Shown one piece after another: positions 3,610 through 5,709 of a stretch of DNA of 20,614 bases (position 1 is the stretch's first letter; each line of letters opens with the position of its first letter). The stretch is from positions 1 to 20,614 of the IMG/VR virus record IMGVR_UViG_3300005617_000450; one strand, 5' to 3'. Below the pieces are notes generated by a model, which worked only from the letters and a program-made list of their open reading frames with translations, was not told the origin of the DNA and did not search any database. A program made the position numbers and the translations under genes. The DNA is from a virus.

Positions 3610-5489
3610 GCACCACCCCCAAGGTCCGCTACAGCCCGCGAGTAGAGCGGGGCTCCACGGGCGAGGAGACCCCTCAGACAGAGTGGTGGACCATCAAGGG
3701 CCCCGACGTGTGGATGCACGTCATGGCCGTGGCCTCAGCCATCGAGATGGATCAGCAGGGCAGGAGGGCCATGTACCTCCGCAACGCGCGCCTCTTCAGC
3801 AACCGCGAGCTGATGGGCCTGGGGTTGGGGAAGTTCAACCGCACCGTCACCAACAGGGACAGCGATCGGATCACCCTCAATGTCATCCGCTCGTGTGTGA
3901 ACACGGCGAAGAACAAGATCGCGGCTGCCAAGCCGCGCCCCGTCTACCAGTCCAGTGGGGGCGACGAGACCATCGAACGGAAGGCGAAGAAGAGGACCCA
4001 ATACGTCGAAGGTGTCTTTGACGAGACCCGCAACTACGACCTGATGAAGCGGCAGTTCGTGGACGGTGCGGTTTACGGGACGGGCTTCAAGCGATGGTTC
4101 ATCGAGAACGATCGGGTGAAGGCTGAGAGGGTCCTAGCCCACGAGGTCCTCATCGATGAGGAGGAAGGGCGCTACCAGGACCCCAGACAGCTCCACCTCG
4201 TGCGCCCCATCCTCCGGGCCAAGCTCGAAAGCATGTTCCCCAAGCACCGGGAGCGGATCCGGGGCAACGCCAACGAGGGTCACAACACCCGTGACGTCGA
4301 GTTCGTGCGCGTCGTTGAGTCCTGGCACCTCAGCGAGGACCCCACGGGCAAGGGTGGGCGCCATACGATCTGTATCGACAACTGCACGTTGCTCGATGAG
4401 GGCTACGACCTCCCCCACTTCCTCTTCACGGTGTTCCGCTGGGAAGACAGCCTCGAAGGCTTCCACGGTGAGAGCCTCGTGGATGAGCTGACGGGCATCC
4501 AGATCGAGATCAACCGCCTACTGAGGACCATCCAACAGGCTCAGCACCTCGCATGCGTGCCGCGGGTCTTCCTTCAGGCGGGCTCGAAGGTCACCAACGA
4601 GATCACGAATCAGATGGGTGGCCACTATGAGTACGTGGGCAGCCCGCCTGTCATTGCCACGGCGAACGCGATGCCCTCGGAGGTCTACCAGCACCTCGAT
4701 ACCCTCATCCGACGGGCATACGAGATCACCGGCATCAGCCAGATGGCTGCGGCTTCGAGGAAGGACACGGGCATCACTGCCGGTGTGGCCATCAGGGAGA
4801 TGAACGACCTCCAGACGGAGAGGTTCGTCACCCAGGGAGAGCGCTACCAGGACCTCGCCCTCGATGATGCCCGGTGCGTGCTGGCCCTCACCACCCAGCT
4901 CGCGGAGAAAGGCCATGCGCCCAAGGTGAAGGTGTCCGAGGGGAACAAGTGCCAGACCGTGGACTGGGAGGACATGGACGAAGACCGCTACATCGTCCGT
5001 GGGTTCCCCGCGAACTTCCTCCCCACGACACCCGCGGGCAAGTTGCAGCGGGTGGCTGAGATGCAGGAGCAAGGTCTCATCACGAGCCGTGAAGAGGCCC
5101 TCGAACTGTTGGACTACCCCGACCTGGAGAAGTGGTCGTCCCTCGCCACGGCCCCACGCAAGGCAGTGGAAATGATGTTGGAGAGCATCCTCGAAGAGGG
5201 AGTGCTCATCCGCCCCAGCCCCAACGACGACGAGAAGACGTGCCGCACGCTGGGCAACCTCTACCTGAAGAGGGCTGAGGTGAATAAGGTCGAAGAGTCC
5301 AAGAGGGAGCTACTCCTCCAGTGGCTGGACATGGTGGACGAGACCTTCCCCCCAGCTCCCCCAGCACCGGCACCGATGGCTCCCCCGGGTGGAGCCCCAG
5401 GCATGCCCCCCGAGATGGGTGCGCCTCCCGGCATGCCCCCCGAGATGGGCATGGGCGCGCCTCCCGGCATGCCCCCCATGGCTGCCTGA
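3606..5489 (+). CDS. portal protein
   Basis: A 627-residue portal. The dodecameric portal forms the DNA channel at one capsid vertex, docks TerL during packaging and the adaptor afterwards. Family-like segments: NVIRSCVNTAKNKIAAAKPRP (92-112), the FHGESLVDELTGIQIEINRLLRTI region (286-309) typical of the wing/clip, and YEITGISQMAAASRKDTGITAG (372-393), the usual stretch near the tunnel helix. Downstream of residue 430 lies a helical crown-like region, then a C-terminal low-complexity tail from about 590 with Pro/Gly/Met repeats. The GTG start overlaps the previous stop and has GGTG at 3598-3601. The TGA stop (5487-5489) lies at the outer tip of the 209-bp inverted-repeat element. Confidence 0.95.
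   Translation: MSTTPKVRYSPRVERGSTGEETPQTEWWTIKGPDVWMHVMAVASAIEMDQQGRRAMYLRNARLFSNRELMGLGLGKFNRTVTNRDSDRITLNVIRSCVNTAKNKIAAAKPRPVYQSSGGDETIERKAKKRTQYVEGVFDETRNYDLMKRQFVDGAVYGTGFKRWFIENDRVKAERVLAHEVLIDEEEGRYQDPRQLHLVRPILRAKLESMFPKHRERIRGNANEGHNTRDVEFVRVVESWHLSEDPTGKGGRHTICIDNCTLLDEGYDLPHFLFTVFRWEDSLEGFHGESLVDELTGIQIEINRLLRTIQQAQHLACVPRVFLQAGSKVTNEITNQMGGHYEYVGSPPVIATANAMPSEVYQHLDTLIRRAYEITGISQMAAASRKDTGITAGVAIREMNDLQTERFVTQGERYQDLALDDARCVLALTTQLAEKGHAPKVKVSEGNKCQTVDWEDMDEDRYIVRGFPANFLPTTPAGKLQRVAEMQEQGLITSREEALELLDYPDLEKWSSLATAPRKAVEMMLESILEEGVLIRPSPNDDEKTCRTLGNLYLKRAEVNKVEESKRELLLQWLDMVDETFPPAPPAPAPMAPPGGAPGMPPEMGAPPGMPPEMGMGAPPGMPPMAA
5400..5480 (+). repeat. tandem repeat encoding Pro-Gly-Met tail of the portal
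   Basis: Three in-frame copies of a unit beginning GGCATGCCCCCC start at 5400, 5430 and 5466. The second and third are 36 bases apart because of an extra CATGGG. GCGCCTCCC at 5421-5429 recurs at 5457-5465. The repeats encode GMPPEMGAPP-type units at the end of the portal. The near-identity at DNA level suggests recent slippage expansion. Confidence 0.85.
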
Positions 5490-5495
5490 TAAAGG

Positions 5496-5510
5496 TGTCC
5501 GATCCGGACA
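5496..5510. promoter_or_regulatory. dyad site, left arm
   Basis: TGTCCG-ATC-CGGACA, a 6-bp hyphenated palindrome inside the left 25-bp arm. The size and symmetry suit a dimeric DNA-binding protein. In RNA it would form a small hairpin competing with the long-range duplex. Confidence 0.5.
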
Positions 5511-5673
5511 TGTTATTTTGAGCTCATAGGGTCCGGGCTCCTGAAGCCCCCCGGGGCGCCCTCGTAGTCGTGCGCCCTTCGATGAGAGATCGAAGCCTGT
5601 ACACAGGGGGTATACGGGGATCGGCGTGCCCTGGGAGGGCTTCAGGAGCCACCCAGGCGCCCTCCGTTAATCA

Positions 5674-5688
5674 TGTCCGGATCGGACA
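5674..5688. promoter_or_regulatory. dyad site, right arm
   Basis: TGTCCG-GAT-CGGACA, the inverted copy of the dyad at 5496-5510. An alternative local stem, CCGGAT (5677-5682) with ATCCGG (5694-5699), overlaps it, so several exclusive folds are possible just upstream of the scaffold gene. Confidence 0.5.
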
Positions 5689-5709
5689 CCTTTATCCGGG
5701 CGGGCTCCT

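Follow-up and report, generated by a model that had tools for sequence, protein, structure and literature searches.

A lineage-specific element resembling a fold-back insertion between the portal and scaffold genes of an uncultured virus

Genes of a phage virion operon are usually separated by gaps of a dozen bases, which raises the question of what a 209-bp stretch with perfect inverted ends represents that lies between the portal and scaffold genes of IMGVR_UViG_3300005617_000450, an IMG/VR contig of an uncultured virus. The window analyzed here is the whole contig of 20,614 bases. A preliminary description had offered four roles for the element, namely, RNase III-type processing, a pair of regulator-binding sites, a packaging or replication signal, and a MITE-like insertion.

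The genes of the contig all run in one direction and encode the small and large terminase subunits, a portal protein, a putative scaffold protein, a capsid protein, and further virion-type proteins, in a virion operon of the P22/SU10-like type. The portal gene (positions 3606 to 5489, plus strand) encodes a P22/SU10-like protein of 627 amino acids, with its stop codon at 5487-5489, and the left outer arm of the element starts inside this stop codon. A gap of 240 nt separates the portal gene from the putative scaffold gene (5730 to 6698, plus strand, 322 amino acids), which is named on the basis of its position and charged sequence; its protein has no family match, and weak homologues are found at the same place in related phages. 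The major capsid protein gene follows (6888 to 8117, plus strand, 409 amino acids, SU10_MCP). The apparent gap behind it is occupied by a small gene of 71 codons at 8120-8335 (MEKPSLLLALMGKK...), which has a codon score of +0.34. The C-terminus of the portal protein (5385-5486) is repetitive and rich in Pro, Gly, and Met (GAPGMPPEMGAPPGMPPEMGMGAPPGMPP), and the DNA that encodes it is a direct repeat of 30-36 nt. A tRNA/tmRNA scan of the contig found none.

The element is built from two nested pairs of arms, as the preliminary description had claimed from exact 25-base ends and an inner 14-bp pair, and both pairs are confirmed. The left outer arm (GATAAAGGTGTCCGATCCGGACATG; 5488 to 5512, plus strand) is a terminal inverted repeat of 25 nt, and the right outer arm (5672 to 5696, plus strand) is its exact reverse complement; the two are separated by 159 nt and extend to 28 nt with one mismatch (5485-5512 and 5672-5699). 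The inner pair consists of a left arm (GGCTCCTGAAGCCC; 5536 to 5549, plus strand), which together with the preceding G forms the small palindrome GGGCT-CCTGA-AGCCC, and a right arm (GGGCTTCAGGAGCC; 5637 to 5650, plus strand), with spacers of 23 and 21 nt between outer and inner arms. The apical region (5577 to 5607, plus strand) holds the small hairpins CTTCGAT-GAGAG-ATCGAAG and CCTGT-AC-ACAGG. Each outer arm contains the quasi-palindrome TGTCCG-ATC-CGGACA or its reverse complement, which in the left arm is followed by TGTTATTTTG, giving it the appearance of a terminator. Because the arms contain nested palindromes, two drawings of the element are possible, a single long hairpin and a series of small hairpins. 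The stretch from 5490 to 5694 is bounded by TA (TA/AAGGTG...CACCTT/TA), with 5'-TA at both termini. Beyond the outer arms, the scaffold leader contains GGGCTCCTGAA a third time (5702 to 5712, plus strand).

The longest exact inverted repeat within 400 nt measures 25 nt in the contig and at most 14 nt in 100 dinucleotide-preserving shuffles of the whole contig, and no other exact arms of at least 20 nt were found in 880 kb of contig and related loci. Hairpin artefacts occur in amplified libraries, and the element is known from a single metagenomic contig, which would be compatible with an assembly or library chimera. We consider this explanation highly improbable, as artefact hairpins usually have long, perfect, adjacent arms, whereas here the pairing is imperfect between two perfect blocks and 159 nt lie between the outer arms; furthermore, both flanks run on as correct, syntenic genes.

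RNAfold predicts an interrupted hairpin with 83 base pairs and -134.5 kcal/mol for the plus strand of 5485-5699. The preliminary description, which put the stem at about 43 paired positions, understated it. Folding the region 5480-5745, as had been suggested there, gave -162.2 kcal/mol with a z-score of -11.3 as RNA, and a z-score of -10.3 as DNA. The only sizeable open reading frame in the gap (5570-5764) has a codon score of -0.26, compared with +0.09 to +0.34 for the genes of the contig, and a coding gene between portal and scaffold is rejected on this score; the 209-base element is non-coding by codon usage, in agreement with the earlier claim. Neither a promoter nor a gene was found inside it. 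The Rfam scan returned no family, with chance miRNA-like matches far below the gathering scores. An attenuator switch, in which the right inner arm would compete with the third GGGCTCCTGAA copy, is not favoured by the sub-folds.

The same junction was compared in related phages, which were fetched with terminase and portal alignments and for which tblastn confirmed the order portal, scaffold region, and capsid. The portal-scaffold gap could be measured in 62 relatives with this gene order, and its median length is 13.5 nt. It exceeds 100 nt in three of them (L034, L104, and L045), where the longest exact arms measure 6 to 9 nt and where, in L034 and L104, the long gap reads by eye as coding sequence. 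The inverted arms of the element are present at this junction in 0 of the 62 relatives, and exact arms of at least 20 nt are present in no related locus. The preliminary description had itself named relatives that share the gene order and lack the arms as evidence against its proposal, and since this is what we find, there is no support for a conserved signal of regulator binding, packaging, or replication. In 63 relatives, the region at the end of the portal gene is no more structured than expected (mean z-score of -0.05), so the element is not a conserved RNA feature. The relatives are distant, with 26-41% portal identity, and their junctions are empty in all 62 but too diverged for the exact empty site to be read; judged against phages at this distance, the element is specific to this lineage. 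Removing it leaves a gap of about 31-33 nt, which falls inside the usual range of the relatives. With 62 relatives lacking it, the element looks like a hairpin-forming insertion rather than a conserved phage signal.

The explanation we favour, to which we give about an even chance, is that of a lineage-specific, non-coding fold-back insertion whose transcript would form a long hairpin between the portal and scaffold mRNA and would probably be cut by RNase III. It is favoured because the relatives are empty and because the gap arithmetic, the size, the terminal TA, and the nested palindromes fit, which also makes the MITE-like insertion the best supported of the four roles offered earlier, even though no second copy was found. 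A MITE/REPIN-like insert of about 205-209 bp would have arrived directly behind the portal stop codon, in a gap that normally ranges from a few nucleotides to a few tens. It would have carried no gene and, if it moved, would have relied on a transposase provided in trans by the host or by another element, which might recognise either the terminal repeats or their nested small hairpins. The comparison with relatives supports insertion as such, and transposition is its presumed origin. As TA is self-complementary, a possible TA target duplication is indistinguishable from an extension of the inverted repeat. The third GGGCTCCTGAA copy outside the ends also speaks against an insertion, as a clean event leaves it unexplained, and so does the lack of a second copy in any collection searched.

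The size and the ends of the element recall several known families. Bacterial MITEs are described as elements of about 100-200 bp with terminal inverted repeats and 5'-TA ends, often intergenic, whose transcripts form a long stem-loop (PMC2229807). Like them, the element is short and non-coding with terminal inverted repeats (209 bp, perfect ends of 25 bp, no coding signal), and it shares its size, inverted ends, terminal TA, and long stem with the TA-terminal MITEs Correia/NEMIS, RUP, ERIC/RU-1, and YPAL/RU-2. In contrast to these, it is single-copy in the searches made, it lies in a phage virion operon, and its arm sequence matches nothing searched. REPINs, which are REP doublets presumably mobilised by RAYT transposases, consist of two inverted copies of a short palindrome with a spacer and can fold into a single long hairpin or into a clover of small ones (PMC3116915). 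The nested palindromes in the arms match this hairpin or clover anatomy, with TGTCCG-ATC-CGGACA, one copy per outer arm, forming an inverted doublet of a short palindrome that folds into a hairpin. Unlike in REPINs, no RAYT gene is seen in the contig, no 16-mer is repetitive outside the two arms, and the 15-bp palindrome is confined to them. As no second copy was found, the element resembles MITEs and REPINs without being assigned to a named family. A third parallel comes from the PLE phage satellites, in which a very abundant non-coding transcript from between inverted repeats (IIR) is present in each PLE and may, as its authors suggest, derive from MITEs (PMC7567579). Here, too, a non-coding stretch lies between inverted repeats in a phage-related genome.

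An effect of the insertion on the operon would act through its transcript. In the virion-operon mRNA, a single very long hairpin would separate the portal cistron from that of the scaffold, and cutting by RNase III would separate the portal message from the scaffold/capsid messages or stabilise them differently. Correia elements within mRNA are cleaved by RNase III at their inverted repeats (PMC10969869), which is a precedent for cutting of the stem described here. By this analogy, the stem, which is long enough for such cleavage, would be a strong RNase III candidate and would probably be cut, so the two messages may become separated or differ in stability. Phage operons of the T7 type have RNase III processing hairpins as well, which are shorter, recur across several junctions, and are conserved in related phages. 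These are likewise stems between cistrons of a phage operon, whereas the present element is single and lineage-specific.

The same stem could instead be a regulatory RNA owned by the phage, a hairpin selected in the lineage to adjust expression between the portal gene and the scaffold/capsid genes, whether it is cleaved by RNase III, blocks exonucleases, or causes partial termination at its left arm (UGUCCG-AUC-CGGACA followed by UGUUAUUUUG). This reading is tentative and, in our judgment, rather unlikely. Its position exactly between cistrons would suit such a role, and the left arm forms a local hairpin of -8.7 kcal/mol that scores as a terminator-like site, albeit with the look of a weak terminator. 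The G-U pairs, 5 on the plus strand against 2 on the minus strand, point the same way but are too few for significance. Further support comes from the gap between scaffold and capsid genes (6699-6887), a second unusually long non-coding gap, which consists of small hairpins in a row, among them a perfect stem of 11 bp (GAGCGAGAGGC/GCCTCTCGCTC) and a stem with a GAAA loop, and has a z-score of -4.1. In 50 relatives, the region ahead of the capsid gene likewise has mild structure on average (mean z-score of -1.3), so control by RNA near this gene may be a group trait, and the structured pre-capsid region could be an RNA feature common to these phages. At the portal-scaffold junction, however, the structure is conserved in none of the 62 relatives and belongs to no Rfam family. 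In addition, a terminator ahead of the capsid gene would need a downstream promoter, and none with a sigma-70 match was found. The element is perhaps a lineage-specific regulatory RNA that arose from a domesticated insertion.

A role at the DNA level would make the arms a pair of inverted 15-bp sites (TGTCCGATCCGGACA), either operators or recombinase sites, with a loop or an invertible segment between them. This quasi-palindrome occurs contig-wide only in the two arms, even when up to 3 mismatches are allowed. The palindrome extends over the whole element, however, and two binding sites would have no need of the inner arms; the element has no promoter or gene inside and is absent in relatives, and we see only a slight chance for this role. 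Two other identities were rejected. The arms lack the core of an integron attC-like site, as judged by eye. Of an N4-type hairpin promoter for a virion RNA polymerase, a hairpin with a 3-nt loop is present, but the start-site sequence and, in the list of open reading frames, a giant virion RNA polymerase are absent.

The repeat could also have originated locally, with inverted duplication and template switching at a small pre-existing palindrome building and then perfecting the arms with no mobile element involved. The nested palindromes of the arms and the third GGGCTCCTGAA copy, which lies 5 nt beyond the outer arm, would agree with this, and only 0.7% of other 30-nt pieces of the contig share at least 11 nt with the element. 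When the left half is aligned to the reverse-complemented right half, the two match over much of their length, with the outer and inner blocks perfect and the stretch between them poorly matched, a pattern that would also fit perfected arms. Nevertheless, we regard a local origin as unlikely, as it leaves the insertion-like gap arithmetic and the terminal TA unexplained, about 200 nt of new sequence would need several events, and the source sequence is absent elsewhere in the contig.

The BLASTN search for other copies that was proposed in the preliminary description came back empty. There is no second copy within the contig, and blastn of 50,697 phage and 72,556 plasmid records found none. 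An exact 17-mer arm scan of IMG/VR gave only chance-level matches without a partner arm, and scanning 84,980 species genomes for an 18-mer of the arms yielded 8 matches, which is chance level, with a partner arm in none. Paired-arm patterns with a variable gap yielded one match each, both apparently chance repeats inside coding sequence. All searches for copies are to be read with records nearly identical to the contig possibly missing from the collections. A transposase related to the element was not found in the searches made. A still-mobile element from an undescribed fold-back family, spreading among these phages by means of its own nested hairpins and co-opted as a portal-scaffold mRNA-processing site, is a very unlikely reading. 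A relaxed hairpin pattern run on 893 sampled genomes from three groups gave one match and nothing resembling the element. This match (L139:1501-1521, GGTGTCCGGTTCCGGACACC) is a short hairpin behind a bacterial gene, and it shows that a palindrome like that of the arms also occurs by itself, as an ordinary terminator-like hairpin.

Small fold-back elements are already well described in bacterial chromosomes, and the present one would be ordinary in kind and unusual in place, within a phage virion operon. A clear case there would show that insertion is possible in the most compact part of the genome and, if true, such an insertion could alter how mRNA is processed between assembly genes. Should it be only a one-off insertion, its main value is that of an example and of a caution that not every perfect phage palindrome should be read as a regulatory or packaging signal.

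Farther downstream, the region 9339-20306 contains eight large or mid-sized open reading frames (1036, 130, 358, 535, 1048, 118, 123, and 323 amino acids) without a PHROG match, four of which were scanned against Pfam with 0 matches. The phage group to which the contig belongs is poorly described yet widespread in IMG/VR.
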